Positions 1,038-15,790 of a stretch of DNA of 33,859 nucleotides are shown here, in pieces. The stretch lies in contig NZ_KZ983960.1 in the NCBI RefSeq assembly GCF_003569765.1, positions 46,284 to 80,142 of the forward strand. Direction: 5' to 3'. The stretch is from Caldimonas tepidiphila (GTDB lineage Bacteria > Pseudomonadota > Gammaproteobacteria > Burkholderiales > Burkholderiaceae_C). The notes under the pieces were generated by a model. That model worked only from the letters and a program-made list of their open reading frames with translations. It searched no databases and was not told the DNA's origin. The position numbers and the translations under genes were made by a program. Every line of letters starts with the position of its first letter. Positions within the stretch are counted from its first letter, which is position 1.

Positions 1038-1127
1038 CGCATCACTCCTTGCCGTTCGGCACTCCTTCCGACAAGGAGCACATTGCCTTCCTGACCCCGT
1101 TTGGATCAAAACTTGGACGAAAGGAGC

Positions 1128-1391
1128 TCACGTCCTTCTTGCCACAAGCTGCTCCGGCATCGACGTCTTACCAAAAGCAATCGATCGACAGCCACCGGCA
1201 GGCAGCAGTTCTGGTGCATCTAGGCAGTACATGCCATCAAGGTAGGCCGCTGTTGTCAGATGGATGGGCACACTGGGATCGCGCTCGATGAGCGCCGTGA
1301 AGAGTTGCATGGACGGCCCGTTCGGATCAAAAACGGGGCCAGCCATGCTGCGGTAGGGTTGACGAGCCATAGCCATGCATCGACCTGTCAC
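1128..1391 (-). CDS. Hypothetical protein fragment, 87 aa
   Basis: No family is recognised. The middle of the frame has natural-looking composition (QLFTALIERDPSVPIHLT, AAYLDGMYCLDAPELLP), while the last 20 or so residues look like out-of-frame reading, so the gene may be frameshifted near its end. It ends 18 bases before the upstream limit (1109) of the next minus-strand frame, and the two could once have been one operon or one gene. No convincing ribosome binding site precedes the ATG at 1391. I rate it as a possible gene remnant only. Confidence 0.25.
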   Translation of the reverse strand: MTGRCMAMARQPYRSMAGPVFDPNGPSMQLFTALIERDPSVPIHLTTAAYLDGMYCLDAPELLPAGGCRSIAFGKTSMPEQLVARRT

Positions 1392-1789
1392 AGACGCACT
1401 TGAGCACTCTTACCTTTCCCCGGCAAAGCTCAGAACTTGTACGCATCCTCCGTTGGCGGGATGACGGCATGGCTGGAGCCGCTGCAGGATGATCTGGCAG
1501 CCGCAGTGGTCGCGGTTGCTGTTCCTTCGTGGATTGCCCGGCTGACGCGCTGTTTCCGCTGCTGCCTGATCTCCCACACCTGCACTGAAGCTGCAGCGGA
1601 AGTCAGCCCGGGTTTTTTTAGACAGCCCTGCACGATGAGGGCAACCCCTACACGCGGACGACCACTCCGAGCTTCTGCCTCCCGAGCAGGGAGGAGCCTC
1701 AATTGGAGACGTTCAGCGCCGGAGTGGCCGCCAAAAAGGATAGCGACGCAAGAGACGCTGGCAACAAAGACCATATGCTTAGAGCAACA
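1392..1789. other. No supported gene
   Basis: Overlapping open frames on both strands (plus 1437-1835, minus 1430-1774) have low-complexity, Arg/Ala/Ser-rich translations typical of shadow frames. No RNA gene, terminator or recognised repeat is seen apart from the 34-bp repeat that starts at 1790. Confidence 0.4.
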
Positions 1790-1823
1790 GCAAGAAGAGG
1801 CCGACGCCCGCTTCGCTTGCCTA
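1790..1823 (+). repeat. 34-bp direct repeat, copy 2 (attC-like)
   Basis: Second copy of the repeat at 173-206, 32 of 34 bases identical. Its right end overlaps the stop codon of the IS5-family transposase frame (CTA on plus is TAG on minus). It contains GCCGACGCCCGCTTCGC, one inserted base away from the attC core at 5279-5338, and continues as CTAAGGTGTC, compared with CTTAGGTGTC in that attC. A decayed attC interrupted by the insertion sequence is one reading; an insertion-sequence end duplication is another. Confidence 0.6.
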
Positions 1824-2767
1824 AGGTGTCTTTGACAGGGCCAGTCGTCGGAGATGCAGTCGAAGCATTGCGAGCTTGATGGTTCCGAGGAAGTGCACGG
1901 CGCGCGCCTCCTTGAGCCATCCCACGCAGCGTTCGATCACGTTGCGGCGACGGTATTGCTCTCGGTCGAAGGCCAAGGGGCGGCCCCGGTGTCGTGCGAT
2001 CTGGTCGCTGCGCTGAGGAATCACGGCTCGCACGTTTCGCTGCCGCAACCATCTGCGGATGCGAGGATGGCTGTAGGCCTTGTCGCCCGCTACCCGCTCG
2101 GGCCGTTGCCGCACGACTCCTGACGGTCGGCAGATGCGCACGGCGTCGAGAACCGGCTCGGCGTACAGCGCCTCACCTGCCTGGCCGGCGCTGAGCCGAA
2201 CCGCCAGCGGCAGTCCGACGCCATCGGTCACCAGGTGCAGCTTGGTACCCCAGCCACCGCGGCTACGCCCAAGCGCGTGATCCTGTGGCTCGTTGGGAGG
2301 CAGTTTTTTTTCTCGCCCCGGTGGCTGCCTTGTGGGCTCGCACGTTGGAGCCGTCGATGCACCACAGTGACCAGTCGATGCCACCGGCAGCGTCGAGGTC
2401 GCGTTGCAGCGTGCGCAGCATCCAGTCAAGCAGGCCCGAGCGCGACCAGCGCCGGTAACGCGAGTACACCGTCTGCCACGGCCCGTAGCCCTCAGGAAGG
2501 TCACGCCAGGGAAGGCCGGTGCTCAGGCGGAAGAGCATGCCGTTGAGGATGGGGCGGTGGTCGCAGTAGTGGCGCCCAGGCGTCTCACGTGCCGGCAAAT
2601 CGAGAAGGCAGATCTCGCCACCGTGCTCCAAAGCAAAGCCGATGGAGCATCGCTTCCAGCATCTTGCGACGGTCCCCACAGGGACGGCCTGCAGTTTGGA
2701 GTGGTGGGAGCAACGGGGCCAGCAGCGCCCATTCCTCGTCGGACAGGCTGTGCCTGTTCTTCGTCAT
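1821..2767 (-). pseudogene. IS5-family transposase, broken and apparently chimeric
   Basis: DDE transposase of the IS5 family. Three frames are needed. The N-terminus (2767 to 2585) has the SDEEWALLAPLLPP start and a WRDLP motif. The middle (about 2584 to 2263) restarts with a second version of the same region (HRPILNGMLFRLSTGLPWRDLP) followed by GPWQTVYSRYRRW. The C-terminus (about 2310 to 1821) has GRSRGGWGTKLHLVTDGVG, AGDKAYSHPRIR and RRNVIERCVGWLKE. The duplicated WRDLP block suggests fusion of two related copies. The switch from middle to C-terminal frame falls on a run of eight A (minus strand, about 2303-2310), as in IS427-group elements that use slippage; loss of one A, or a +1 shift, joins the frames. 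Probably not functional because of the N-terminal break. Confidence 0.8.
2303..2310 (-). other. A8 slippage site inside the IS5-family transposase
   Basis: Eight consecutive T on plus (A on minus) lie exactly where the transposase must change frame. Reading ...ARKK in one frame and ...KKLPPNEP in the other meet here. Two-frame organisation with a poly-A slippage site is known for IS427-group members of IS5; a simple mutation would look the same. Confidence 0.5.
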
Positions 2768-2994
2768 GACCGTGTCCTTAATGATCCGAAGCAGCCAGTG
2801 CGGCCAACCGCGTGCTTACATGAAGCGACGATCGCCCCAAGATGAAGGCCGCTGTCGGCCAAGACCGGCCGTCCGTCATGGACCGCTTCCGGGCAGCACG
2901 TCCCTGCATCCAATCGCCTTCCTTGCTGTCACAAAGTTCAGGAACGTACACTACCCAAGGCACCGCCATAGCGGTGCGTCAGTTCAACATGGTT
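2768..2994. other. Intergenic stretch after IS5 remnant, no gene seen
   Basis: Contains GGCC-rich inverted motifs around 2850-2870 (GGCCGCTGTCGGCC and GACCGGCC) but no frame with recognisable protein features. It may be the tail of an integron cassette, since a possible attC R'' box (ATCTAAC) follows at 2995. Confidence 0.3.
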
Positions 2995-3065
2995 ATCTAA
3001 CGCCGCCCCCTGCCGTGCCTCCGACTCACATCAACGCAGCGTCAGATAAACTCTACTCGTTGGGC
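2995..3065 (+). repeat. Possible attC site (weak fold)
   Basis: The ends fit the integron consensus: ATCTAAC at 2995-3001 (RYYYAAC) and GTTGGGC at 3059-3065 (GTTRRRY), 71 bp end to end and just upstream of a cassette-like gene. I cannot see the inner complementary arms that an attC needs, so this may be a decayed site or chance. Confidence 0.35.
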
Positions 3066-3138
3066 GCAATCATCCGCCGCAAACGCTGCAAAGCACCATG
3101 AATCACTCGAAATTTTCTCTCCACGATGGAGGCATTGC

Positions 3139-4443
3139 TTGCACAAAGATCTAGAACACGCATGTACAGCACTTGAAACTCTCGCAACTGCAATAATTAG
3201 CGGCTGGTCGAACGATTCGACAATGACAGACCATTTAGGGTGGTTTGCTCCAACAGTGACGCGGCACGAGTTAGCCTCCTTAGCGATCAATTTGGCAGAA
3301 GATATTCGCGCAATCGGCGCAGATACAATAGAACCATCTATTGAAACCCTGGTTCGCGATATACCTCGCCGAGCCCAGACGCTTCAAAATCAAACCGTCC
3401 CATACTTCTATAACGGAAACGCAGGGCAATCAATTCCGGCTTATATTTCAACGATTTCTCTTTTAAGAGCCGCAATCCTTCCGCCACTTGGATGGCAGGT
3501 AATACCCGATCAAAAGTCTTTGCCTTCTTCCCTCGCGCGACGAGCAAGAGCAGCACTCGCTGAACTTGACCAACTCACACCGAACATCTCCACGCTGAAG
3601 CAGCAAATTAGCGACATTGAGTCCGCTCATGCTATTGCTGACTCGCTGCCAGTTGACTTACAAGCACTTGCTGAAGGACGGGAAAAGCTTGCTAAAGCTG
3701 TAGCAGACGCTACAGAGGCAGCGTTCAAAGTTAAAGAAGCCCGTGACGCGGCAGCCCTCGAATTATCCGCAATGGCAACGGCAAATTTAGAGGCTGGAAA
3801 GCTCATAAAGCAGTGCGAGGCCGCATACCACATCACAACTACAAAAGGATTAGCGGGAGCTTTCGATCAGCGAGCTGTAAGCTTGTCCAATTCCATGTGG
3901 ATCTGGGTTCTTGGCCTAATGGGAGCACTCATCGTCGGCTCATTCATCGGTACGCAAAGACTGCAAGACCTCTCGACGACACTAAGCGCACCCAACCCAA
4001 ACCTAATAAGTATATCGATACATGTGCTCCTCTCTCTTCTTAGCGTTGGCGCTCCTCTTTGGTTTGCGTGGCTTGCCACAAAACAAATTGGACAGCGCTT
4101 TCGCCTTTCAGAAGACTATGCATTCAAGGCATCTGTAGCAAAAGCTTACGAGGGATACAGAAAAGAGGCCGCCCGCATAGACCCTGAATTCGAATCCAGA
4201 CTGTTTGGATCGGCTCTTACAAGACTAGATGAAGCCCCATTGCGCCTCGTTGAAGCCACAAATCATTCAAGTCCGTGGCATGAAATGGCAAACTCTGATG
4301 CTGTTCATCGGGCTTTCCGTGCGGCTCCAGAGTTTCAAAATCAAGTTATGGAGATGCTACGTGAAGGTGTGAAAACGGCTGGACAAACAATTAGCCGCAC
4401 CAGTAAGGCTGCAGGCAACGCAATTCAAACCGAAAAAACGTAA
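3139..4443 (+). CDS. Cassette-borne membrane protein with coiled coil, unknown function
   Basis: Family not recognised. The 434-residue product has a soluble N-terminal part, a long Ala/Glu/Lys-rich helical stretch (about residues 135-225, likely coiled coil), two transmembrane segments (about 251-271 and 291-313) and a cytosolic C-terminal part with EDYAFKASVAKAYEGYRKEA followed by a segment rich in acidic and aromatic residues. The start is uncertain: the first candidate is TTG at 3139; the frame is open upstream without an in-frame ATG, and an out-of-frame ATG lies at 3126. The gene is clearly more A+T-rich than its surroundings, as is common for integron cassette genes. It follows a possible attC and precedes another cassette. 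Membrane anchoring plus coiled coil would suit a sensor or phage-defence role, but that is inference. Confidence 0.75.
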   Translation: MHKDLEHACTALETLATAIISGWSNDSTMTDHLGWFAPTVTRHELASLAINLAEDIRAIGADTIEPSIETLVRDIPRRAQTLQNQTVPYFYNGNAGQSIPAYISTISLLRAAILPPLGWQVIPDQKSLPSSLARRARAALAELDQLTPNISTLKQQISDIESAHAIADSLPVDLQALAEGREKLAKAVADATEAAFKVKEARDAAALELSAMATANLEAGKLIKQCEAAYHITTTKGLAGAFDQRAVSLSNSMWIWVLGLMGALIVGSFIGTQRLQDLSTTLSAPNPNLISISIHVLLSLLSVGAPLWFAWLATKQIGQRFRLSEDYAFKASVAKAYEGYRKEAARIDPEFESRLFGSALTRLDEAPLRLVEATNHSSPWHEMANSDAVHRAFRAAPEFQNQVMEMLREGVKTAGQTISRTSKAAGNAIQTEKT

Positions 4444-4834
4444 AGCGCCCGCTTTTGGGCAGTAGGGCAGCCGTCTCAAATGTCCACAGTGGGTCGGGAG
4501 TTGAAGGACAGCCGGTGCCGGCCATGACCGGCCGCACGCCAGCGTCCGCTTCTCGACATCTCTGACAGGCCTGGCGCCGCCCACCCCGGGGAGCTTGGAG
4601 CGCAGACTCCTTGCCCCGTTGACGCCGCAGAACCACAGTCAGAGCACCGGCCTCATGCACAGTCTCACTCGGCAGTGCGCCATTTGTCGAAAAATTAGTA
4701 CCATGCCGAACAGCAGCCGAAGGAAGATTTCTCAATGAGGCAGGGGGTTGGATGCGCAGAGGCGATTGTTGTTACGCAGACACCTGCGGGTGTTATGCGG
4801 AAAAACTGTCGCCATATAACTTATTTACCTACCT
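4444..4834. other. Non-coding cassette tail with core-site-like motifs
   Basis: No supported gene. Immediately after the preceding stop is a small hairpin (AAAGC-GCCC-GCTTT, about 4442-4455). Further on lie GTTGGAT at 4747-4753 (fits GTTRRRY) and GTTATGC at 4792-4798, and a hairpin ACACC-TGCG-GGTGT at 4780-4793. I find no RYYYAAC partner at attC distance, so the preceding cassette may have lost its attC, or two cassettes have fused here. Confidence 0.35.
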
Positions 4835-5275
4835 ATGGAAGATCAATTGCATCCCATTCTTCAAATTGCGCTAGGTATCCTCGCAACTGTTTCGGCGATC
4901 GCTTCTGCGATTGCAGCCTTTAAGGCGCTGACCACTGCTCGGGAGGCACTTGCCTTCCAGAAGCGGCTATCGAGACATCAAGAAGCCCTCTTCTTACTAA
5001 GAGTCACGATCGCCGCCCTATGGCGACTCAAGCGCGTCCTCGGCAATCCCCTTCAGGCGTCGGACGAAGAATTTGTTGACATGGATCGTGTGCACGCCGA
5101 GATCAAATCCAATATTGACGCACTTATCCAGTGGGGAGTGCTAACACCGCGGGATTCGGCCCTCTTCAGCGCAACCTCACGTGGCGAGATTATTGATCAA
5201 ATGACTATATCCAACGAAGAAATAGACATCGAGATAAAGAGACTCCAAGCGAAGATCGATGAAATATTATTGTAA
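4835..5275 (+). CDS. Cassette-borne small membrane-anchored protein, unknown function
   Basis: The 146-residue product has one N-terminal hydrophobic segment (about residues 7-29, Ala/Ile-rich), then a basic helical stretch (AREALAFQKRLSRHQEAL) and a mostly helical, acidic C-terminus ending IEIKRLQAKIDEILL. It is probably a single-pass membrane protein with a cytosolic coiled-coil tail. The family is not recognised. The ATG at 4835 has no clear ribosome binding site (ACTTATTTACCTACCT precedes it), which is common for cassette genes. The stop lies three bases before the R'' box of a well-formed attC (5279-5338), the normal layout of an integron cassette. It is A+T-rich compared with host genes. 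Confidence 0.75.
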   Translation: MEDQLHPILQIALGILATVSAIASAIAAFKALTTAREALAFQKRLSRHQEALFLLRVTIAALWRLKRVLGNPLQASDEEFVDMDRVHAEIKSNIDALIQWGVLTPRDSALFSATSRGEIIDQMTISNEEIDIEIKRLQAKIDEILL

Positions 5276-5278
5276 GGC

Positions 5279-5338
5279 GTCTAACACTTCTTCCAAGCCG
5301 ACGCCGCTTCGCGGCGCGTCTTAACTTAGGTGTCAGCT
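5279..5338 (+). repeat. attC recombination site (60 bp, aadA-like class)
   Basis: GTCTAAC at 5279-5285 is a perfect R'' box. The inner arms AAGCCGACGCCGC and GCGGCGCGTCTT pair around TTCG with one mismatch and the usual extrahelical base. The right core GTCAGCT (5332-5338) departs from GTTRRRY at two places but matches, with two changes, the complement of the next cassette's R'' box (GGCTAAC), as expected after cassette insertion. The whole site closely resembles the short attC sites of aadA-type cassettes. Confidence 0.8.
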
Positions 5339-5348
5339 TGCATAAAAT

Positions 5349-5933
5349 ATGCCGCACCCAGACTTCAATCCTCCAGGCAAGCCCCCGAAACTCACCGGGC
5401 GAAAGTCCACGCTCACAGGTCTATTCATCACGACCCTGACGCCGTACATCGAGCCGACCGACGCTGAAGTTGACGAGGCTCTTGCGATACTGGGGATGGC
5501 ACGTGGAAACTGCACTTGCGCGTACTGTGGGAATGCTAAGACAGAGTGGGACCACTTCAGGCCCGTTGTACGAAACCGTGCTCCGACTGGCTACATCACC
5601 GAAATCGCGAACTTGGTGCCGTCTTGCGCGAAGTGCAATCAATCCAAGAGTGGAAGAGACTGGAAGAAGTGGATGCTGGGGGATGCCGTCCATTCTCCTA
5701 ATCGGCGTGGCATCTCCGACCTGATGGAGCGCGTTGCGCGCTTGGAGGCTTTCGAGCGCTGGCGAACGCCTACGAGGATCGACTACCCGGTGATTGCGAC
5801 GGCTGAACGGTGGGCGAAGCATCAGAACTACCTTAGCTTGGTTCTTGCCATTCTTGCCGAAGCAGAAGTCCACGCGAAGGAACTGCGCGAGCATGTGGAG
5901 CAGTCACTGAGGCGGCAGCGCGATGCAGGCTAA
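5349..5933 (+). CDS. HNH endonuclease-fold protein on an integron cassette
   Basis: The 194-residue product carries an HNH (beta-beta-alpha metal) nuclease motif: CAYC at residues 57-60, WDH at 67-69 with the probable catalytic His69, NLVPSC at 88-93 and CAKCN at 93-97, followed by KSGRDW. The two CxxC pairs should bind a structural zinc. The N-terminus is Pro/Lys-rich; the C-terminal half is helical and charged. HNH proteins of this size act as restriction enzymes, toxins or homing nucleases; which applies here cannot be told. The ATG at 5349 lies only ten bases after the attC core and has no evident ribosome binding site. The TAA stop overlaps the R'' box of the next attC. A cassette in a mobile element is a typical place for a phage-defence nuclease, but this is inference. 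Confidence 0.85.
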   Translation: MPHPDFNPPGKPPKLTGRKSTLTGLFITTLTPYIEPTDAEVDEALAILGMARGNCTCAYCGNAKTEWDHFRPVVRNRAPTGYITEIANLVPSCAKCNQSKSGRDWKKWMLGDAVHSPNRRGISDLMERVARLEAFERWRTPTRIDYPVIATAERWAKHQNYLSLVLAILAEAEVHAKELREHVEQSLRRQRDAG

Positions 5934-6041
5934 CAGGTCGTTCGACGCGGACACGCACCGGCAAGGCGGCGCAAGCCGTGCGCGGGAGCATACGTCTTCC
6001 AGCGCCTTGCCAGTGCGTGCCGCCCAAATCCGACGTTAAAC
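5928..6041 (+). repeat. attC recombination site (114 bp)
   Basis: GGCTAAC at 5928-5934 and GTTAAAC at 6035-6041 form the outer boxes; the latter fits GTTRRRY exactly. The arms ACACGCACCGGCAAGGC and GCCTTGCCAGTGCGTG are complementary but for one base, giving a long stem with a variable loop (CGTGCGCGGGAGC region). This is a textbook long attC following the HNH cassette. Confidence 0.85.
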
Positions 6042-6213
6042 GTCTGCTTTCTGAAAATGAAAGCAGCGGCGTCAAGGACCGCTGTGGGTCTATTCCGCTG
6101 AAAAACTCTGTCGAGACGCACCGGTGCGAACCGACCAAGGGCTGATGTCAGGCCTTCGGGCATCTCAACCTGGCTTTTTGCCAGGGTTGCGGGTTGATCG
6201 GTGGGGTTTCGCC
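6042..6213. other. Intergenic stretch with a hairpin; array end
   Basis: Right after the last attC is a perfect 8-bp hairpin, CTGCTTTC (6044-6051) and GAAAGCAG (6059-6066), loop TGAAAAT. No gene is seen. A motif GGGTCTATTCCGCTGAAAAA near 6087-6106 is reminiscent of insertion-sequence ends and may be the edge of the IS1182-family remnant. Confidence 0.35.
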
Positions 6214-6793
6214 TCAAGCGGGCGCACCTCTACCTTGAACGGGTGGTCCTTGCGGGCCCAACTTGGTCAGACGGCGTAGGTTCTGAACTGTTGCTGCCAA
6301 GGTGAACTCATCGCTGGCACCGTAAGCCCCCGCAGGCGCAAGCGCCGCAGTTTGAGGATATGCTTCAAGTGTGCAAACAGCATCTCGACCTTCTTGCGCT
6401 CGTGGCGCGAGTGCTGGTAATGCTCGGTGGTGGCGATCTGGCGCGCCACGTCGCGTGCTGCCTCATGCACGTTGCGCCGAATCAGGCGCGTCGGGGTGTC
6501 GGGCAGCAGCGCTGCTTCATCGGACACACCTCGCAGTCCTGCTGTCGAGCGCGGCAAATGATCCTGTCGTCGTCGGTCACGCGCGAGCGCTGCTCCTTGA
6601 ACGCACGCTACTGGCTGCGCAGCGGATGGCCTTGAGGGCAGCGGTACTCGTCAGCCGCCTCGTCCCACTCGAACTCGGTGCTCGACAGCGTCTCGTCCTT
6701 GCGCTGCGTCTTGTCCCACACGGGGATGCCGCTTGTGGCCCCGACCGTTCTCCCGAGCTGCCAAGAACGCACTGCCCTGAACTTTCCAAACAC
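6214..6793 (-). pseudogene. IS1182-family transposase, C-terminal remnant
   Basis: Only the C-terminal part of an IS1182-family transposase remains. Recognisable blocks, reading down the minus strand, are GIPVWDKTQRKDET (from about 6730), EYRCPQGHPLRSQ, CEVCPMKQRCC, RKKVEMLFAHLKHILKLRRL and DEFTLAATVQNLRRLTKL, ending at TGA 6216-6214. There is one nonsense codon after PLRSQ (TAG at 6610-6608, where the family has Tyr) and two single-base frameshifts (after RCCP and after RLRLRG). The first 20 residues of the open frame (to 6793) do not look like the family, so the true junction lies between about 6730 and 6797, directly against the stop of the small recombination-module gene. Non-functional. 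Confidence 0.85.
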
Positions 6794-6796
6794 AGC

Positions 6797-7234
6797 CTAG
6801 CGACGTCCAAGCTTCATAGGTGGTGGCAGCAACTCATCAAGCCTACGCTTCAGCGACTGCACCTCGTCCGTCAGCTCAAGGATGCGCAGATTGGCGCTCA
6901 GGAGTTGGGACTGCGCCCTGTCGCGTTGGGCGATGGCGTCGGCCAAGCGCTCCTCCGTCGACCTCCTAGAGGCCTTATGACGAGCTGCCTTTTTGGCGGC
7001 GGGTTGGTCCTCAAGCTTATGCAGCTCAAGGTACGCCTGGATTTCACGAATCAGCCCTGGGAACCGCGCCTTCTTTAGGGCTGAGGGGTCACATCCGGCT
7101 TCCCGCGCCACATTGTTCTGCGTCACGGCGGTGCCTTTGGGCAGCACTTTTGACTGCCCATCCTTTAGGCGCTCAAACGCCTGCCGGAAGCGTGTCTCGG
7201 CGTTGGCCGGCTCAGCGGTCTGCTGCGATGACAT
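6797..7234 (-). CDS. Small coiled-coil recombination accessory protein (Srap/TnpC-like)
   Basis: Fourth gene of the recombinase module; 145 residues. The N-terminal half has a helix-turn-helix-like stretch (GTAVTQNNVAREAGCDPSAL, about residues 54-73), and the C-terminal half (about 95-140) is a heptad-rich coiled coil ending LKRRLDELLPPPM. Small coiled-coil proteins in this position accompany two-recombinase systems (TnpC of Tn554-type elements, or the auxiliary protein of strand-biased circularizing elements), where they assist or orient recombination. Its start overlaps the end of the preceding recombinase gene by 23 bases, so the two are translated together. No catalytic residues are expected or seen. 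Confidence 0.65.
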   Translation of the reverse strand: MSSQQTAEPANAETRFRQAFERLKDGQSKVLPKGTAVTQNNVAREAGCDPSALKKARFPGLIREIQAYLELHKLEDQPAAKKAARHKASRRSTEERLADAIAQRDRAQSQLLSANLRILELTDEVQSLKRRLDELLPPPMKLGRR

Positions 7235-9284
7235 TCAAGTAGTTCTCCATGGCTTGGCGCTCTGCCACGAGAGCGGCATGGCGAGGATGACTCGCGACCA
7301 ATTGCCTGAGCTCGATGAGCACCTGATCCAGCTGTGCACGCACCTGGGCCTCTTTATCTCGGTCGAACACGACATCGGTGCATGGCTTCCCGCCGTCTCC
7401 GCCCCCGCAACGAGCGACAGACTCAATGCCACCGTATTCGCACGGACCAGGCTTCATGCAGCCTCCAAGACGGTGCTCACGGAAGCTAACCTTTCCTGCC
7501 TTCGCCCAGATGGCGAGCGTCTTCACGTCCTTTGCCGCCAACAGGTTGACCGCTACAGCCTCTTTGCGCTCTGCCGAATGCGGAGACATGAACCGGTCAC
7601 TGACGACGTCCTGGAGCCTGTAGGCCATGGCTTCGTACATCGCCATCACGACAGCGCGTTCGACTTCCTCATTGAGGTGCAGTCTGGTATGTCCACGACC
7701 GTAGTACAGAGGCATAAGTCTCGTGGCGTGCTTCATCTGCTGCTGCATCGAGCTGTCAGAGATGACGCCTGAAGCGAACATGTTGACCGCGCCGGTTCGC
7801 CGGTACTGGTGCCACGCAAGCGGCCAGACGTTGCCCTCCGCGAACTCGTCGGCGGACAGGTTGGGTGTGAGCCGCCGCGCAATTCGTAGGTCTTCGTTGG
7901 TGATGCGCAGCTGCTGTTCGTCAAACAGCAGTGGGAAGCGTTGTAGGACGTCCCTAAGGCCGTCAAGAGGCGTGCGGATGTCATAGGGCTTAGCCCACCC
8001 GATTGCGAACCCCCAGGGCTCCGTTGCCGTGCTGAACAGATATGGATTCGCTCGGTCCGCAGGCGTCGGCCGAACTTCCGGGTTCGCCGCGTCGCAATCC
8101 ATCCGGAGGCGCGCGATTACCGTCAAGGCATCGACGGCGAGCTGAACGCTCGGACTAGCAACCCAGCGAGCGTCAACGTCGGGGTCCGTCTTGGTGGTTT
8201 CGCCGCAAATGAGGGGAACTCGCCCCAGTTTTTCGTCGTGCTCCCACAACAAGCAGTCGGCTCGAAGGGAAGCGACCTCCTCTTTCCGCTGCAGCGTGAA
8301 GTTGGCGATATAGGCAAGGCCTGCCAGGGAGACCAGCGAGAGATAGGACGAGAACATGGAGACTCGGGTCTCGTCCCAGCCAACCACCCATCTCCTCAGC
8401 AGGTCGGCGATGCCTCGCTCGCGAGCGAACTCGCTGAAGGGGCCAAGGTATGTGCAACCTGGCCGATGTGCGGAGCCGCCTGTAAACGGACCCTTGGACG
8501 CGTCCTTGCCTTTAGCGAGCGCTGCTTCGAGCGAGCCGTAGTTCGAGACATACGCGTGAACACAGAACTTGAAGCAAGCCTCTACCTGCTGCCTGTGCTT
8601 CATGAAGTCTTCGAGACATTCGCGCAGGCGTTCCACCTGATACAGCCAGATGCGCGGCGGAATGTAGGCGGTCTGCACGTGCTCATGGTCGTGGGCGACT
8701 TCAGCGAGCCGCTTCAGACCGTTCGCATCCACGAGGACGAAGCCAAGGTCCTGGCGGGCGTCATAGAGCCTGTGGAGCACCGTAATCGTCGCCTCCCATT
8801 TGCTTGGAGAAATCTGCTCGGCAAGCTGGTCTAGGACCCTTGGGAAGCGCTGCAGCATCGCGGCATTGATGTTGTTTCGATTGCAGAGAGCAATCACGGC
8901 CCAGACCGAACCAAACCGGTTCTTGATAGTGCCCGCTGCCCGATACCCGCGCGGCCCCCAAATCAACCAACCCATGGCGAGCCGAAGCAGGTCGGCGTTC
9001 TCGGCGATGACAGTCCCTGCGGTCTCTGCACCGCCGTCGCCGAAGTTCAGCTGGTAGGGCTTGCCTGACCAAGGCGTCAGGTCCCAGATGGGGTCTCCCC
9101 AGCGGGAGACGACCAAGCCTTCCTTGTCAAGGACGACTGGCCAATCGCGCGCCGGCGGCCAAGTCAGGGGCCGGTAGTTCACTGCCGCCTCGGTCACCGC
9201 AGGAGCATCGACCTTTAAGCAGAGCTCATGCAACGCCATCTTCACTGTGCAGTCCCCTCTACAGCCAGAATGAGGTGCTTCCAT
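7212..9284 (-). CDS. Tyrosine recombinase, second active copy (IntB-like)
   Basis: Site-specific recombinase of 690 residues, much longer than phage integrases. Numbered from the 9284 start, the catalytic set is complete: Arg333 (FTLQRKEEVASL), Lys365 (TTKTD), His492 and Arg495 (WHQYRRT), His519 (MKHATRLM) and Tyr527 or 528 (PLYYGRG). A Cys-rich segment after about residue 625 (GGCMKPGPCEYGG, ARCGGGDGGKPC) may bind metal. The frame begins at ATG 9284, overlapping the upstream gene by 43 bases with a possible AGGAAGGGAG site; a second ATG at 9239, just after the upstream stop, is an equally good start (675 aa). It is the third gene of a same-strand module and overlaps the small accessory gene downstream. 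Confidence 0.85.
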   Translation of the reverse strand: MEAPHSGCRGDCTVKMALHELCLKVDAPAVTEAAVNYRPLTWPPARDWPVVLDKEGLVVSRWGDPIWDLTPWSGKPYQLNFGDGGAETAGTVIAENADLLRLAMGWLIWGPRGYRAAGTIKNRFGSVWAVIALCNRNNINAAMLQRFPRVLDQLAEQISPSKWEATITVLHRLYDARQDLGFVLVDANGLKRLAEVAHDHEHVQTAYIPPRIWLYQVERLRECLEDFMKHRQQVEACFKFCVHAYVSNYGSLEAALAKGKDASKGPFTGGSAHRPGCTYLGPFSEFARERGIADLLRRWVVGWDETRVSMFSSYLSLVSLAGLAYIANFTLQRKEEVASLRADCLLWEHDEKLGRVPLICGETTKTDPDVDARWVASPSVQLAVDALTVIARLRMDCDAANPEVRPTPADRANPYLFSTATEPWGFAIGWAKPYDIRTPLDGLRDVLQRFPLLFDEQQLRITNEDLRIARRLTPNLSADEFAEGNVWPLAWHQYRRTGAVNMFASGVISDSSMQQQMKHATRLMPLYYGRGHTRLHLNEEVERAVVMAMYEAMAYRLQDVVSDRFMSPHSAERKEAVAVNLLAAKDVKTLAIWAKAGKVSFREHRLGGCMKPGPCEYGGIESVARCGGGDGGKPCTDVVFDRDKEAQVRAQLDQVLIELRQLVASHPRHAALVAERQAMENYLNVIAADR

Positions 9285-10963
9285 TCGCTGTGGTAGCTCC
9301 CTTCCTCAATGCGAGCCAGCGCCTCGTCCACCCAGCCTCGACGGAGGGCATTGGAACCCTTGAACCAGGTGAGCTTCTCGCTCAACTTGTCGATAGCGTG
9401 CTGGGCCGGGTGCTCCCGATTGGCCGCCGTAGCGGGGAAGCAGTGCCTACCCAATTCGAGTACCTTGAGGTGTCGGAAGCAGGCCAGCGACCACACGTAA
9501 TCCTGGGTGTCGATGTCGCGGTGGTGCTCACACCATAGGCAGCCCGATGGGCGGGCACAGTCGGGGGACGGCGCCGCTGCGGGCTTGGTGGACGTCGCTA
9601 CGGGCACGCCGTCACACGACCCTGGCGCGACCGACCGGGAGGGCTCTACTCGGGCGAGGGTCGGGTCGCTGGCCTGCCAGAAGCGCGTGACCTCACCAAT
9701 GGTCCGTTGCAGAGAGGGTTGCTCGTAGACCTCGATGAGCACCTTCTTGTGGTGTTGTGCCATGTCGGCTGTCAGGTCGGGGTCTCCGCTGCGCCTCAGA
9801 AGCCAGTTCACCCGTGTGCCACGAAGCATGCTGGGAGGTATCCAAGGGACATCGGCTTGCTTGCAGAGGCCAATCATGAGGTCGAAGCGCGTTGGGCGAC
9901 TCTCGTGCGAGCCTTCTCGGATGACGGGGAAGAGGTCCACCGAGTCGGGGAAGAGCGCCCGGCGCCACTCCAGGTAGCGTTCGAAGTGGCTGCGGTATTC
10001 GCTGAAGATTTCGAAGAGGACTTCGCCATCGCGTCGGTGCTTGTAATCGCGGACCTTGTAGCCGTCGATGTCGCTTGAGTAGCTGAAGTGCCGCAGCTTG
10101 AGCTTGTAGGCCTGGGTCAAGTTCATGCCCGTCTGGCCAATGAACATCAGCAGTTCAGCCAAGATGCGCGTGTTGACGACAGCCTTGCGGCCGCGATGCT
10201 CAAGAGAGCGATTCGCAGCGTAGTCCTGTCTCCTAGCCAAAGCTTGGCGGACTTCCCATGCGGCCCATTCGACTTGGCGCGTAGGCACACTGCCGCCGGT
10301 CCATAAGGTCAGGCTGCCGCCCGTTTGCCGGTTGATGCGGACGTCGAGGACTTCCCAAACGACCTTGAGTGGCAGGCCATCACAGACGTCCTGGAGCAGT
10401 CGACCAAAGGCAAAGGTATCCGCGAGGTTCTGCTTTTCGGCCTCTACCCCTAAAGGGGCCTTTCGAAGACGTGGTCTGGTCAGGCGCGTGAGATGCAGGA
10501 GCGGTTTCTGCCGCCCAAGCACGATGTCCAAGACTTCGCCTACTCGCAGAGCGCTTGTGTACGCGGTGCGCTCAGAGATTTCTCTGGCGACATTCGAGCG
10601 ATGGAAAAGATGGTCAGCCCACTTCACGTAGCTTGCTGCGACATCGGACATCGTCAGCGGCGCCGCCGCTCTATCTGCCCAAGCGAAGAAGGTGACCGTC
10701 TCGTCAATCTGATTCCGAGCCGTGATGGGGCTTCCGCCGCCCGCGAGCTTCCCATCAATCGCCTCGTGCAGAGCCAGCACTAGCGCCTGGCGGTCTATTT
10801 GAAGGGTGCCCAGGAGACCTTCCTGAATCGCGTGCTGCACCTTGTCAGCACGCATCTGGGCACCGCCCTTGTAGAGCAGCCTCGTCAGGTCCGGCGGGGT
10901 CTCGCGAGGGCCCACAGGAAGACTTGGGAACGTCAGCGGCGCTGACCGCAAGTCGTCATGCAT
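9242..10963 (-). CDS. Recombinase-fold protein lacking catalytic residues (Tfp-like)
   Basis: The 573-residue product aligns by eye with tyrosine recombinases but is probably not catalytic. The box I Arg is replaced by Asn281 (GQTGMNLTQAYKLKL) and the His of the H-x-x-R motif by Ser378 (SMLRGTR, Arg381 kept). His404/405 and a Tyr at 413 (IEVYEQ) remain. A Cys/His cluster near residues 470-500 (CARPSGCLWCEHH, then ACFRH) suggests zinc binding. The start ATG overlaps the stop of the preceding recombinase gene by eight bases, and its own end meets the next recombinase gene. A dead recombinase between two live ones is what the tyrosine-recombinase-fold protein (tfp) of strand-biased circularizing elements looks like; a structural or strand-choice role is inferred. 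Confidence 0.8.
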   Translation of the reverse strand: MHDDLRSAPLTFPSLPVGPRETPPDLTRLLYKGGAQMRADKVQHAIQEGLLGTLQIDRQALVLALHEAIDGKLAGGGSPITARNQIDETVTFFAWADRAAAPLTMSDVAASYVKWADHLFHRSNVAREISERTAYTSALRVGEVLDIVLGRQKPLLHLTRLTRPRLRKAPLGVEAEKQNLADTFAFGRLLQDVCDGLPLKVVWEVLDVRINRQTGGSLTLWTGGSVPTRQVEWAAWEVRQALARRQDYAANRSLEHRGRKAVVNTRILAELLMFIGQTGMNLTQAYKLKLRHFSYSSDIDGYKVRDYKHRRDGEVLFEIFSEYRSHFERYLEWRRALFPDSVDLFPVIREGSHESRPTRFDLMIGLCKQADVPWIPPSMLRGTRVNWLLRRSGDPDLTADMAQHHKKVLIEVYEQPSLQRTIGEVTRFWQASDPTLARVEPSRSVAPGSCDGVPVATSTKPAAAPSPDCARPSGCLWCEHHRDIDTQDYVWSLACFRHLKVLELGRHCFPATAANREHPAQHAIDKLSEKLTWFKGSNALRRGWVDEALARIEEGSYHSEWKHLILAVEGTAQ

Positions 10964-12224
10964 CGAACTTGTTCCAGTCTCGCTTCACGACGCCTGAGAA
11001 CACGGACGCGAACTCCTTGCTGATGAGCGCCTTCACCGGCGCGTTCTGCACGAACTTTACATAGCGCAGCGTTGTGGCCTCGTCCTTGTGAAGCATCGCG
11101 TCACGCACGAACGCCACAGCACTGGCCACGTTAGCGACATCGATCGCCAGCTCCATCAGCATGGTCCCGTATGTGGCCCGGGTCTGATGGAACTTGAAGG
11201 CCTCCATGAACCGCATGCCGGCGGCTTGAGCTCTTCGACGGAGGTCAGTCATGAGCCGATTGAACGTCTGATGCGCGTATGGGCTTCCCCGCGTAGTGAG
11301 GAACAGCCGCTGGCGTTCGGCTTCATTGGCCAGTGCTTGTCGACGCAGTCGCTGCATAGAGTAGGCGTAACCCTTGAGCTCGTCTACGAGGAACGTGGGG
11401 ACGAGCAGGTCGCCGGAAACATCGAACTTGGTGGCCACGCCAGTTCCGGGGCCAACGGCCACCCGGCTGAAGCCTGGCATTGACCGGTCAGGCATCGCTC
11501 CCTCTATGTGCCGGACTTCGAGCGTCGTTATGGTCTCCAGTCTTGCTCCTGACAGCACCCCCAACGACAGCATGAAGTGCAACTCATGGAGTCCCTCCTG
11601 CTTGGTGAACTCAAGCAGTTGGCGAGCATGCTCCGGGCTCATCGGCGTCAGGCCATCTTCCAGCGTATCTCCGGGGCGGCCACGGTTGGGGATGGCGAGT
11701 TCCGACGACGTCGTCAGCATGGCTCTTGCAAAGCCGGTGCTGTCATGGAACCGGCGCAGCACCTGTTTGTCTTTCCACATCGGCGAGCCGCGCTCGACGA
11801 ACCCATAGATTTGGGCGTAACGATAGAACTGGATAACGGCTGCCATTCGGGCGGTGGCGGTCGACGGCTTCAACACACCCAGCATGTCGCGCTGCCGGAT
11901 GAGCTCCGCACGAAACTGAACAATCGCTCGGTCGCCTATGCGCATGGGGAAGTGCCGCCAGTCCAGCTCGTTGGCCTCAAGCCAAGAGGCGTAAGCTGCA
12001 AGGTGCTTCATCAAGCCAGTCACCGTCTTGATGTTTCCACCCACCGAACCCTGGGCTCTGGTGACTGCCCAATGATTCACCTCTGACCACGGCTCCCCGT
12101 CTTCCCAGAAGACCTGCGGCAACTTGGAAATCGGCGCGGCCAGCTTGTCGCGCACCCAGTGAACTTCTCCCCCTTCAATGACCTCCCGCATGGGGAAGAA
12201 GCTCACCGTTTCGAGATTGGCCAT
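10956..12224 (-). CDS. Tyrosine recombinase, first active copy (IntA-like)
   Basis: Site-specific recombinase of 422 residues. An N-terminal core-binding region (about 60-160) precedes a catalytic domain with all expected residues: Arg228 (LSGARLETI), probable Lys266 (GVATKFDV), His346 and Arg349 (FHQTRATYG), His379 (MLHKDEATTL) and Tyr388 (RYVKF). It should cut and rejoin DNA at the element ends. It is the first of four overlapping same-strand genes, and begins 54 bases after the stop of the carried pncB, so both may be on one transcript. The ribosome binding site before ATG 12224 is weak. Confidence 0.88.
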   Translation of the reverse strand: MANLETVSFFPMREVIEGGEVHWVRDKLAAPISKLPQVFWEDGEPWSEVNHWAVTRAQGSVGGNIKTVTGLMKHLAAYASWLEANELDWRHFPMRIGDRAIVQFRAELIRQRDMLGVLKPSTATARMAAVIQFYRYAQIYGFVERGSPMWKDKQVLRRFHDSTGFARAMLTTSSELAIPNRGRPGDTLEDGLTPMSPEHARQLLEFTKQEGLHELHFMLSLGVLSGARLETITTLEVRHIEGAMPDRSMPGFSRVAVGPGTGVATKFDVSGDLLVPTFLVDELKGYAYSMQRLRRQALANEAERQRLFLTTRGSPYAHQTFNRLMTDLRRRAQAAGMRFMEAFKFHQTRATYGTMLMELAIDVANVASAVAFVRDAMLHKDEATTLRYVKFVQNAPVKALISKEFASVFSGVVKRDWNKFDA

Positions 12225-12278
12225 CGTGCTTACGAACTACTTCGATTCAATCCACCGTTTGCTGTCTTCAACTAGCCA

Positions 12279-13499
12279 TTACGCGGGCTTGTTGAAGACG
12301 CTCCGCAGGTACGCGAGGAACGTCTCGTCGTCGCAGATGGTCTTCCCGGGAGAGTCGGACAGCTTTGCCACCGGACGGTCGTTGCAACGCACCAGCTTCA
12401 TCACAATCTCCAACGCCGGGTAGCTCGGCCCAAAGTCATTGGTCAGGTGCGTCCCAATGCCGAAACCAGTTTGCGCACGGCCGGCAAAATGGCGCCACAA
12501 CGAAATGGACTTCTGAACCGTGAGGCCATCAGAGAAGACGAGGCGCTTAGTCCGGGCGTCGATACGCAGCTTGGCGTAGTGCGCCAAGGCCTTTTCGCCC
12601 CATTCGACTGGGTCCCCCGAATCGTGTCTTAGGCCGTCGAAAAGTTTGGCATCGCGAAGGTCAAAGTCCCGTAGGAATGCGTCCATGCCCACCACGTCGG
12701 TCAGAGCGATGCCGAGGTCACCGCGATACGTGTCGTTCCAAGCGTCCAGCGCCGCCTTCTGGAAGTACCGCAGCGGCACGTCTCGCACGGCCTGGAAGGT
12801 CTGCAGGTACTCGTGCGCCATCGTGCCCATCGGGGTCAGGCCGTGCTTCTTCGCCAGATAGACGTTGCTTGTCCCCTTAAAGAACTGAGGCACCTCTGCC
12901 ATCAGCGTCTCAACGACCTCTTCATGCCAAGCGCGAGAGAAGCGGCGACGCGTGCCGAAGTCGAAGAACACGAAGGGCGCCAAGTCCTGCGCTGCGGCAG
13001 CCTCGGGTGCGAAGTCCTTCAGCTGCGCAATCTTCTCAGCCAGACGACGACGGCCTTCCGCCAGCGCCTCCTCTTGCGGCCAGCGGCGAGCATGGAGTTC
13101 ACCAACGATAGCCAGCACGAAAATCTCAAAGAACATGATATGGACCTGCGGCCCGCGCGCCACGATTTCGAGAGCGTCGCCATTCCCTTCGATTCTGATG
13201 AACCGGCGCTGCAGTCGAAAGATGGACAGGAAGTCCACGAAGCTGCTCTTCATGTAGCGCAGCGAGCGGAGGTAGTCCAGCTCATCCTCCTGGAAGGTGA
13301 GCGAGCAGAGATGTTCGACCTCACGGACTACCTCGTCTTTCAGCGCTGCCAGCGGCATGGAAGGCGGGCGACGGCAAACGAAGCGGTACTCAGTCTCGTT
13401 GTCGTTGTACGCGCTGTTGAACAGCGCCTGCCACATGGTGAACTTGTAGAGGTCGGTCTCCAGCAAGCTGCGGATGACGGGATTGTTGTTGCTCGTCAT
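12279..13499 (-). CDS. pncB: Nicotinate phosphoribosyltransferase, complete element-borne copy
   Basis: Makes nicotinate mononucleotide from nicotinate and PRPP in NAD salvage. The 406-residue protein is full length and has the family marks: the start SLLETDLYKFTM, the phosphorylated His229 in GTMAHEYLQTF, the KLFDGLRHDSGDP substrate loop (residues 285-297), VFSDGLT and GIGTHLTND. It begins at ATG 13499 with GAGG eight bases upstream, placed right after the stop codon of the interrupted host pncB frame. It shares most residues with the host copy by eye but is clearly diverged and less G+C-rich, so it arrived with the element rather than by local duplication. The inferred role is to replace the function destroyed by insertion. 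It lies directly upstream of the recombinase module. Confidence 0.95.
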   Translation of the reverse strand: MTSNNNPVIRSLLETDLYKFTMWQALFNSAYNDNETEYRFVCRRPPSMPLAALKDEVVREVEHLCSLTFQEDELDYLRSLRYMKSSFVDFLSIFRLQRRFIRIEGNGDALEIVARGPQVHIMFFEIFVLAIVGELHARRWPQEEALAEGRRRLAEKIAQLKDFAPEAAAAQDLAPFVFFDFGTRRRFSRAWHEEVVETLMAEVPQFFKGTSNVYLAKKHGLTPMGTMAHEYLQTFQAVRDVPLRYFQKAALDAWNDTYRGDLGIALTDVVGMDAFLRDFDLRDAKLFDGLRHDSGDPVEWGEKALAHYAKLRIDARTKRLVFSDGLTVQKSISLWRHFAGRAQTGFGIGTHLTNDFGPSYPALEIVMKLVRCNDRPVAKLSDSPGKTICDDETFLAYLRSVFNKPA

Positions 13500-13935
13500 T
13501 TCAGGCCTCTTAGCAAACGGATGCCACCGAGGCGGCAGGACTCAAACTCAGGCCTCGTCCCGAGAGCCGATGCAAGTGTCGAGAGAAGCTCCTCCGAACC
13601 TTCCTCATGCGGCTATGAAGTTCGCGCCCGCCCGTGGACAACCAGCCCGCCCGCGCTACGCGCGCCCCAAGGGGCACAGGCACTCGTTCCTCGGCCTGTG
13701 GACGGCCGCCGCGAGCGGCGGTTTCAGCTGGTTGACGCACCGGCTCCCCGGCACTGACGCGTTCCTGTGGACAGGCAAGCTGCCCACAGGAACTTGCCCC
13801 ACCAGCTTGAAATTGAATCCCTGGGAAAACCAAACAGCCGTCCTTTTCTGCCTTGCAGGCGCCACCTTGAACCGATGTCCATGTCCATAGGTTAACTGAT
13901 TCGCAGTTGGTTGTCCATACATGCAACTCGCAGTT
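13500..13935 (-). other. Element terminal region: leader of carried pncB
   Basis: This 436-bp stretch joins the host pncB fragment to the carried pncB. On the minus strand the host frame stays open across it to TAA at 13512-13510. It contains a strong hairpin (13761-13793), several TGTGGAC motifs (near 13631, 13696 and 13767), and at its host-side end a cluster of short repeats. No independent gene is supported. It probably holds the recombination site and possibly a replication or regulatory signal of the element. Confidence 0.6.
13761..13793. repeat. Hairpin in element terminal region
   Basis: GTTCCTGTG (13761-13769) and CACAGGAAC (13785-13793) are perfect inverted repeats, with an inner GGCA/TGCC pair (13774-13777, 13781-13784) around AGC. 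There is no T-run after it, so it is not a standard terminator. Its position near the element end suggests a protein-binding or single-strand-folding site. Confidence 0.55.
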
Positions 13936-13936
13936 G
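13870..13936. other. Putative attachment site (right end of element)
   Basis: The sequence next to the host junction is full of short repeats: TCGCAGTTG as a direct repeat at 13901-13909 and 13928-13936, the second copy ending at the junction; CAACT-CGC-AGTTG palindrome at 13924-13936; AACTG-ATTCG-CAGTT at 13894-13908; and TGTCCAT motifs at about 13876, 13882 and 13912. Such arrays are typical binding sites for tyrosine recombinases. The exact crossover cannot be fixed without the other end or an empty host site. Confidence 0.55.
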
Positions 13937-14793
13937 TCGAACAGCTTGGCGAAGTAGAGGTCGAAGTCGCGCAGGAAGGCGTCCATGCCGATCACGTCGG
14001 TGAGCGCGATGCCGAGGTCTCCCCGGTAGGTCTGCACCCAGGCTTCGAGCGCGGCCTTCTGCGAATTCCTCAGCGGCACGTCGCGCACCGCCTGGAAGGT
14101 CTGCAGGTACTCGTGCGCCATCGTGCCGATCGGCGTGAGCCCGAGCTGCATCGCGAGCCGCACGTTGCTCGTGCCCTTGAAGAACTGCGGCACCTCGCGC
14201 TTCAGGGTCGTGACGACCTCCTCCTGCCACGCGGCGCTGAAGCGGCGGCGCAGGCCGAAGTCGAAGAACTCGAAGGGGTGCGCGCCGCGCGCCGAGCGGT
14301 GCTCCGACTCGAACTCCCTCAGCCGCTCGATCTTCGCGGCGAGACGTCGGCGGCCCTCGGCGAGCGCCGCCTCCTGCGGATGGCGCCGCGCGTTCAACTC
14401 CCCGACGATGGCGAGCACGAAGATCTCGAAGAGCATCACGTGCACTTGCGGCCCGCGCGCGACGATCTCCAGCTCCTCCCCGCGCGCCTCCACGCGGATG
14501 AAGCGCCGCTGCAGCCGGAAGATCGAGAGGAAGTCGACGAAGCCCGACTTCATGTAGCGCAGGCTCCGCAGGTAATCGAGCTCCTCGGGCCGGAAACCGA
14601 GCGTGCACAGGTGGTCGAGCTCGCGCTCGACGTCGGCCTTCAGGTCCGCCAGCGGAAAGGCCGGGCGGCTGCGGCACACGAAGCGGTACTCGGCCTCGTT
14701 GTCGATGTAGGCGCTGCCGAAGATGGCCGCCAGCATCGAGTACTTGTAGATGTCGGTCTCGAGCAGGCTCTGGATGATCGGTGCGCTGCTCAC
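13936..14793 (-). pseudogene. pncB: Host nicotinate phosphoribosyltransferase, truncated by element
   Basis: The host copy starts at GTG 14793 (AAGGAAG six bases upstream), giving VSSAPIIQSLLETDIYKYSM, and matches the family through GTMAHEYLQTF up to the Asp of AKLFD (codon 13938-13936). There it runs into unrelated sequence instead of the GxRHDSGDP substrate loop, losing about 115 C-terminal residues including the SDGL and GTHLTND regions. The frame continues through element DNA to 13510, so a fusion with about 142 foreign residues could be made, but it should be inactive. It lies 124 bases after the end of pncA on the same strand, and the two likely formed a host salvage operon. The conserved motif at the break suggests the element targets this sequence. 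Confidence 0.92.
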
Positions 14794-14917: not shown

Positions 14918-15790
14918 TCAGCCGCGCCCGGCGCGCTCGAGCAGCCGCGGCCGCAACTCGTCGCAGGTGGCGAGCTGCACGCCGCGCGCGCGCATCGCGG
15001 CGAGGAACTCCTCGTGCTGGCGCTGGAAGCCGGCGACCGGGCTCATGCAGTCGGTCAGCAGCAGCAGGCGCTCCGGGCGGCCGCCGGGCAGGTGCTCGAC
15101 GAGGTGCTCGGTGCTCGCGCGCACGCAGTGGCTGCTCGCCTCGCCGGCGACGACGAGCAGCTCCGCATCGTCGAGCCGGCTCAGCAGCGGGCGGTTGAGC
15201 TGCGTGCCGGGGTCCTCGTCGTCGGGCACCTCGGCCTGCAGCGCGCTGTAGTGCTCGGTCCAGGGGCTGGTGCCTTTCGCGACCTTGTGCACCGGGCGGC
15301 CGGTCTCGTCCTCCCAGACGTTGCAGGCCGCGCGCACCGCGGCGTGGACGTTGTGGCCCCAGGCGCCGATCTCGCAGTGCACCGGCCAGGCCATCAGGCG
15401 GTAGCGGCCGCGCGCCTCCAGCTCGTCGAGGTAGGCGAGCGTGCGCGGCAGCGCCGACGCCACCCGCGGCAGGTAGTCGCCGCCGCGCACCTGCTGCGCG
15501 GTGATCTCGGTGAAGGGCTGGACCGGGCCGCCGTCGCCGCGCTGCCAGAAGGTGACGTGCGCGATGTCCAGGCGCTGGTGCGAGTCGAGCGTGATCGAGA
15601 TGTCGTCGAAGCCGTCGCCGGCGTCGAGCAGCAGCGCGGCCAGCCGCAGCATGTCGGCGTGCGCGCCGGGCACCGGCAGCGCCGGCGCGAGCCGCGGGCC
15701 GCCGAGCGGGTCACCCGGGCACCAGTCCCCGGGCAGGTCGCAGAAGTCGTTCTGCGGGTCGATGATCAGCAGCTGCCATGCGTCGCTCAT
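14918..15790 (-). CDS. pncA: Nicotinamidase-like cysteine hydrolase
   Basis: Isochorismatase-fold hydrolase expected to turn nicotinamide into nicotinate, which PncB then uses. The catalytic triad is visible: Asp11 (LLIIDPQNDF), Lys172 (KVAKGTS) and Cys222 (EASSHCVRAS), with probable metal ligands Asp69, His71 and His78 (TLDSHQRLDIAH). At 290 residues it is longer than E. coli-type PncA, matching the long form found in other bacteria. ATG 15790 has GGAGG about ten bases upstream. The neighbouring pncB supports the nicotinamidase reading over other cysteine hydrolases of the family. It is intact, so loss of host pncB alone would leave its product unused unless the replacement pncB works. Confidence 0.85.
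   Translation of the reverse strand: MSDAWQLLIIDPQNDFCDLPGDWCPGDPLGGPRLAPALPVPGAHADMLRLAALLLDAGDGFDDISITLDSHQRLDIAHVTFWQRGDGGPVQPFTEITAQQVRGGDYLPRVASALPRTLAYLDELEARGRYRLMAWPVHCEIGAWGHNVHAAVRAACNVWEDETGRPVHKVAKGTSPWTEHYSALQAEVPDDEDPGTQLNRPLLSRLDDAELLVVAGEASSHCVRASTEHLVEHLPGGRPERLLLLTDCMSPVAGFQRQHEEFLAAMRARGVQLATCDELRPRLLERAGRG

Follow-up and report, generated by a model that had tools for sequence, protein, structure and literature searches.

Results

A Genomic Island Splits pncB and Carries a Complete pncB

We have found that pncB, the gene for nicotinate phosphoribosyltransferase, is split by a genomic island in Caldimonas tepidiphila and that this island contains a complete pncB of its own, located between one end of the element and its recombinase genes. 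The stretch of DNA that was analyzed (hereafter the window) is 33,859 nucleotides long and corresponds to C23:46284–80142 of the C. tepidiphila genome (G000); coordinates without a prefix are positions in the window. An island of the same layout is present in pncB of a bacterium (G472) from another genus of the same family. Judged by its gene order and its homology to other gin loci, the island in the window fits a GInt-type element (Genomic Island with three Integrases; Bardaji et al. 2017, PMC5385486), and the carried gene probably takes over the function of the broken one, with expression from the host promoter. The features that bear most directly on this conclusion are as follows.

13937–14793, minus strand: 5′ part of host pncB (its own codons 1 to ~286), interrupted by the island; G+C content at third codon positions (GC3) 0.96, like that of neighboring host genes
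13937–13942, minus strand: right crossover core, GTTCGA; the left junction, outside the window, has the same core (C23:45726–45731)
13876–13936, minus strand: right end of the element, with the arm CAACTGCGAGTTG and two ATGGACA motifs, a layout similar to that at the ends of related gin elements
13500–13936, minus strand: spacer inside the element, 437 bp
12279–13499, minus strand: carried complete pncB (nicotinate phosphoribosyltransferase, 406 residues), in the same direction as the host gene
10956–12224, minus strand: ginA, tyrosine recombinase (PF00589, E = 2.7e-8)
9242–10963, minus strand: ginB, assigned from its position and from homology with other gin operons; no match in Pfam, NCBIfam, or PHROGs
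7212–9284, minus strand: ginC, assigned likewise; no Pfam, NCBIfam, or PHROGs match
6797–7234, minus strand: ginD, small protein, assigned on the same grounds; no match in these three databases

From its GTG start at 14793 on the minus strand, host pncB is intact as far as ...DLYFAKLF, beyond which lies unrelated DNA, and its coding sequence stops at the core GTTCGA, in agreement with an earlier note on this DNA that had described a gene intact up to the KLFD motif. The note had also placed a complete, diverged pncB on the same strand ahead of a recombinase module; the carried gene indeed matches NF003704 and TIGR01514 above their cut-offs, and it starts 437 bp from the core and stops 54 bp from the start of ginA. 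Likewise, the missing 3′ part of the host gene, which was expected to the left of the window, was found ~0.55 kb from the window start (C23:45380–45736; residues 285–403 in the numbering of the carried protein). A search of G000 for pncB yielded three places in all. When the two host halves were joined in a script, they gave a single unbroken pncB frame (...KLFDGLRHDSG...), the split point being the KLFDG motif of the host gene at codon ~288. The island lying between the halves measures ~14.5 kb (C23:45732–60219).

A Second Island in pncB of Another Genus

Contig C8 of G472 displays, in order, a host 5′ part (41863–42543; residues 2–232), a spacer, a full pncB (42978–44177), ginA (44202–45458), and a host 3′ part (123445–123963; residues 228–403), with ~81 kb between the side of the complete copy and the 3′ part. 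There is no N in C8:24000–133828, and this island is therefore free of gaps. Its ginA is 61% identical to that of the window, and the two carried pncB copies are 82% identical. A congener of G472 (G571) has an uninterrupted pncB, that is, an empty site, to which the two flanks of the G472 island align over 6,538 bp at 92.6% and 4,988 bp at 93.1% identity, with an overlap of six bases. The cores at the two ends differ by one base (GCACGA vs GCATGA).

The earlier note had supposed that related islands would sit in pncB at the same codon with a pncB next to the recombinase genes. The layout recurs in G472, but the codon does not: the second island entered at codon ~230, as against ~288 in the window. 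Thus, the two islands have their target gene in common and not their site. Both sites are in strongly conserved stretches, GTMAHEY and KLFDGLRHDSGDP.

The Island Resembles a GInt

The genes ginA, ginB, ginC, and ginD all lie in one direction in the window. Of 17 genome_contigs loci, whose sources include Massilia, Pseudomonas, and Paraburkholderia, 16 gave tblastn matches to all four genes in this order; at the remaining locus (L019), the operon is cut by a contig end. Residues R228, H346, R349, H379, and Y388 of GinA are invariant in 18 aligned sequences and are presumably the catalytic motif of a tyrosine recombinase; a PDB profile search with GinA gave no match. GinB and GinC are homologous to the products of the same genes at other gin loci only and match no family in Pfam, NCBIfam, or PHROGs.

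When the gin-side ends of seven related elements were aligned by eye, they shared an arm resembling CAACCGCGAATT and, after it, a TGGAC motif; in five of the seven, the bases just ahead of the arm end in CGA. The motif ATGGACA, counted on either strand, occurs twice in the right 500 bp and four times in the left 542 bp of the window island, and twice in the right 442 bp and four times in the left 1,000 bp of the G472 island; its frequency in the host flank is 0.05 per 500 bp. The border repeat is a core of 6–7 nt (GTTCGA in the window and GCACGA/GCATGA in G472), and the inverted arms around it match at 10 of 13 positions. The A+T content is 46.7% in the first 150 bp of the left end, ~40% in the island within the window, and ~31% in the host part. 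The gin operon is an end module with an end motif of the kind seen at related loci, except that the spacer and pncB intervene between the end and ginA.

The spacer itself is related to other gin elements: 185 bp of it are 90% identical to the G472 spacer, and 74 bp are ~91% identical to a second gin locus of G000, with no further match in the six genomes searched (in G000, 40 of 58 first-look candidates were scored). The stretch of 185 bp is GC-rich and lies at 13620–13810 in the window and at 18669–18852 in L056, the G472 locus; its 90% identity contrasts with the 61% of GinA. Rfam gave no match in 12000–14500.

The Pairing with pncB among gin Loci

To what extent do other gin loci carry a copy of their target? 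We compared the DNA upstream of ginA with itself at 27 distinct loci, comprising the two pncB islands and 25 others: 16 of the 17 genome_contigs loci (L014 had no upstream DNA), the C29 locus of G000, and eight further genomes, with G1157 (L004), G1075 (L005), G729 (L010), and G472-C46 (L015) each counted once. The comparison covered the fetched stretch alone (1.35 kb upstream in L008), so that a spare elsewhere in an island would be missed. A broken gene paired with a complete one was found at two of the 27 loci, both of them pncB islands, and at none of the 25 others, which speaks against a general rule that GInts carry their target. The matches set aside were transporter paralogs (31%–32% identity) in L005, L006, and G1075 (the same locus as L005), short repeats in L016, L017, and G889, and two thioesterase-like frames (27%) in L018, all by our own reading. 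The note had further named, as a finding that would refute it, related elements that carry pncB while residing in some other target; no pncB was seen in the fetched stretches of the gin loci screened outside pncB (three overlapping sets of 17, 10, and 6, with flanks mostly of 1.5 to 10 kb and shorter at contig ends).

The closest contrast is a Massilia genome (G269; GinA 59% identical), in which a 5′ part of PhoD (C1:77541–77657) adjoins ginA and a 3′ part lies at C1:13501–14388, with no PhoD match in the ~63 kb between them; the two parts are apparently one gene split by a gin island. The gin islands of L004, L005, and L006, all from Massilia, start within one gene at identical codons (GDYIYD); Pfam identifies this gene as PhoD in G269 (which is L006), the one locus tested. 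They represent a fixed site in a gene that is apparently interrupted, with no spare beside ginA. The second gin locus of G000 (L059; C29:2251–3516; GinA 60% identical) similarly has no copy beside ginA; it follows a frame, flavodoxin-like by our reading, whose end coincides with that of the element, and it has 74 bp of the spacer. On plasmids, the gin operon of L133 (P. aeruginosa, NZ_OR283034.1) comes after a short annotated efflux-permease gene (249 bp) and beside resistance genes, and that of L132 (Burkholderia dolosa, NZ_CP132925.1) lies behind a frame, DnaE-like by our reading, that reaches the element end.

Searches of overlapping samples of relatives detected ginA in three of 399 genomes of the order (E ≤ 1e-40) and eight of 399 genomes of the family (E ≤ 1e-60), G000 itself included in both counts; in samples to which G000 did not belong, it was detected in one of two genomes of the G472 genus (G472 itself) and in five of 392 genomes of the Massilia family (E ≤ 1e-130). 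A search for pncB identified three of 399 relatives at E ≤ 1e-185, again with G000 included. Viral contigs yielded no ginA and 60 pncB loci (43%–58% identity), and plasmids yielded 94 records for ginA and 36 for pncB, the best identity for the latter being 67% among the matches listed.

Origin of the Carried Gene and Selection on It

Among 32 pncB proteins placed in a tree, the host protein of G472 is sister to that of its congener and far from the protein carried in G472. Meanwhile, the two carried proteins group with that of a further genome (G411), with the host protein of the window outside (support 99/93 and 100/96). Given this placement, neither carried pncB is a recent local copy, and the tree thereby rejects the recent local duplication that the note had named as a refuting result. 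The G411 protein is nearer to the carried protein of the window than is the carried protein of G472. The G411 gene looks to be in its native place: by our reading, it follows a cysteine-hydrolase-like gene, as host pncB does in the window, and no ginA was detected in the G411 genome at E ≤ 1e-5. Because the G411 gene lies among the carried copies, the tree fits a double capture from related hosts as well as a single one after which the gene returned to a chromosome.

The GC3 of carried pncB in the window is 0.784, as compared with 0.71–0.74 for the gin genes and 0.94–0.98 for five host genes. In G472, the carried gene has a value of 0.733, between those of the gin genes (0.60–0.64) and host pncB (0.903); the value for the G411 gene is 0.844. 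The ratio of nonsynonymous to synonymous substitution rates (dN/dS) is 0.078 between the two carried copies; this ratio and those between each of them and the G411 gene lie at 0.08–0.09, rough values given that the synonymous distances are high (1.2–1.7). Carried pncB is under purifying selection and of foreign origin.

We also considered whether the carried gene is recoded at its own crossover site as a form of self-immunity. The copy in the window is unusual there (7.4% of 30-bp windows are as high or higher), but the G411 gene is equally unusual (7.4%) and the G472 copy is ordinary at its own site (37%), and we have set the idea aside as unsupported.

Probable Expression of the Carried Gene and Cost to the Host

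We envision that a GInt-type island recombined site-specifically at the 6-bp core in the conserved KLFDG codons, splitting host pncB, and that a complete pncB from a related lineage thereby came to lie between the end motif and ginABCD, in the host direction and first after the junction. The host pncB promoter would now drive the carried gene, and nicotinate salvage would continue. Insertion would thus cost little, and the host would afterwards depend on the copy in the island. We infer the involvement of the host promoter from the position of the carried gene as the first after the junction, from its direction, and from our finding no terminator-like site in 12100–14100. Transcription from the next host gene could also run into it:

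14918–15790, minus strand: host gene upstream of pncB, cysteine-hydrolase-like by our own reading; no Pfam or PHROGs match; a similar gene precedes pncB in G411

In the window, in-frame read-through of the host 5′ half continues up to a stop codon that precedes the start of the carried gene by 10 bp. The host half in G472 has no such read-through to the carried start, and hence we claim no translational coupling.

What would be gained by replacing pncB? We detected nadC in all eight genomes tested and a pncB match in 186 of 299 family genomes (E ≤ 1e-20), with no match in the other 113. Hence pncB is probably not essential here; in addition, two of three congeners have no pncB match at E ≤ 1e-20. 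Given the ubiquity of nadC in the genomes tested, it is unlikely that the carried gene is needed for survival of the host after insertion, and the benefit would be that insertion costs less, and perhaps that the host comes to rely on the island, rather than survival. G000 has two nadC matches (on C14 and C2) and the other seven genomes have one each.

Cargo of the Island

Beyond ginD lies the remainder of the island, with these features:

1–6796, no strand assigned: cargo region; the left end of the element is beyond the window (C23:45732–46283)
6267–6557 and 1821–2679, minus strand: pieces of insertion sequence transposases
5349–5933, plus strand: HNH endonuclease gene
3139–4443, plus strand: orphan gene for a protein of 434 residues (phrog_34659)

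The interval 3139–5933 encodes the orphan 434-residue protein, a 146-residue protein, and the HNH endonuclease. With its modest matches to defense families (the best being 1.5e-7, to PDC-M01B), it is possibly a defense module.

Discussion

Several observations weigh against the view that the carried gene was brought in by the island and stands in for host pncB. Only two islands that both carry pncB and are inserted in it were found, and their insertion codons differ. The carried copies are not monophyletic, the G411 gene being among them. An element-like composition of the carried gene is clear in the window only, the value in G472 being intermediate. The left host half is joined to the window by scaffolding across a nominal gap of 10 Ns (C23:46274–46283). 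No sigma-70-like site was found in 12100–14100. Finally, pncB is probably not essential.

The scaffold gap invites the explanation that unrelated contigs were joined in an assembly artefact. Within the window, however, no N interrupts the stretch from the right junction through carried pncB to ginA, the core and the reading frame agree across the gap, and the G472 island has no gap at all, and an artefact is accordingly most improbable. We attach just as little credence to an old tandem duplication of host pncB with insertion of the island in one of the copies: it would explain why two pncB copies stand in tandem on one strand, but the host halves are outside the complete copy on both sides, both G472 flanks meet within the one pncB of G571, and tree and GC3 separate the copies, which already contradicts it.

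Alternatively, the island might have broken pncB first, each host having later regained the gene beside the island by local transfer or recombination. The nearness of the G411 gene to the carried copy of the window would fit two such separate acquisitions, and capture of genes near the integration site has been proposed for helper-embedded phage-inducible chromosomal islands (HE-PICIs; PMC10111431). In both genera, however, the copy is part of the element, flanked by the gin spacer and ginA; the spacer is 90% identical over 185 bp, and the composition in the window is like that of the element and not the host. We therefore regard later regain as unlikely. Slightly less likely still is that pncB is ordinary adaptive cargo that aids nicotinate salvage and is found in pncB-hitting islands by coincidence. 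GInts are described as carrying varied cargo (PMC5385486), and the absence of a pncB match from 113 of 299 family genomes means that a copy could be useful. But both carriers of pncB sit in pncB, and at different codons, whereas none of the 25 other loci tested had a copy of its target beside ginA, nor was pncB found in the stretches screened at other gin loci.

Takeover of pncB function by a gene that the island brought with it is thus the explanation we favor. A bolder version of it, which we put forward tentatively and think less probable than its opposite, is knock-out and rescue: a lineage of islands specialized on pncB would destroy the host copy at conserved codons and supply the only working copy under the host promoter, its preference having persisted for pncB as the target gene although the codon of insertion changed. 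If so, insertion would be harmless and loss of the island by deletion would be costly.

Our results suggest that replacement of a whole target by cargo at the end of a GInt is a little-described way to spare the host. A separate whole gene seems to keep the function, so that the codons most conserved in a metabolic gene can serve the island as its target. If this is correct, a complete copy next to a broken one would be a searchable signature of target-replacing elements, and such elements would offer a route by which foreign versions replace metabolic genes while the element becomes hard to lose. The earlier note had seen here a distinct way of avoiding harm. A whole gene is indeed supplied; the avoidance of harm is our supposition, for a gene that is probably non-essential, and the idea is not wholly new, in view of tRNA-dependent lysogeny (PMC10865867) and the backup copies of HE-PICIs (PMC10111431). 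Beyond these two precedents, we found no report of a pncB island or of a whole target gene carried by an element, and none of whole-gene replacement for a chromosomal metabolic gene, in the open-access literature, an absence that therefore carries little weight.

How does the island compare with known systems? As described, Tn554, SE, and RIT elements (PMC10214605) also have several tyrosine recombinases, with a small helper in Tn554 and SEs and a 6-bp core in SEs and Tn554, but their gene sets are different and the available descriptions include no replacement gene. Elements that enter protein-coding genes usually carry a replacement sequence in the attachment site, so that the gene is kept working (PMC10111431, PMC5704250). 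The function of the target is likewise preserved by target-end-restoring elements (integrative and mobilizable elements, PMC5704250; tDNA islands, PMC4383910), but these fuse a terminal fragment at the junction, whereas here a separate whole gene is present.

HE-PICIs resemble the island in that the element is in a protein gene, has no replacement sequence in its attachment site, and may carry captured genes near the integration site, the captured late genes being proposed as intact backup copies (PMC10111431). Their target, as portrayed there, is a late gene of the helper prophage, whose disruption is read as regulation favoring the satellite. In contrast, the target here is chromosomal pncB, a metabolic gene, which places the island outside the HE-PICIs; the recombinase system is another one, and the copy is at the element end in both cases.

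As for GInts, the published account (PMC5385486) gives as their traits a gin operon at one end, imperfect border repeats of 10–17 nt, and an AT-rich far end, excision as a circle for which all four gin genes are required, and locations at gene ends, at 5′ ends, or between genes, with an outward promoter. The window island shares with them a recombinase operon of four genes whose order is the same, cargo located beyond ginD, and insertion at a specific site with a core of ~6 nt, and differs in having a complete copy of its target between the element end and ginA. The available portions of that account mention no replacement gene, and pncB does not appear in its main text. It also mentions P. 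aeruginosa islands located where a duplicated ribonucleotide reductase gene ends, possibly a case of the same sort.

A parallel in logic is tRNA-dependent lysogeny, in which actinobacteriophages replace the whole tRNA gene at their integration site (Guerrero-Bustamante and Hatfull 2024, PMC10865867). There, as here, a host gene is disrupted by the integrase and left unrepaired, and the element supplies a whole substitute. That system, as reported, involves a phage and a tRNA gene that is essential and was proven by experiment, whereas ours involves a gin island and a protein-coding gene; moreover, the replacement here, unlike the tRNA gene, adjoins the junction, a position from which it could be driven by the host promoter. 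By this analogy, the window island would work like tRNA-dependent lysogeny without being a member of it, its target being pncB and the element a gin island.

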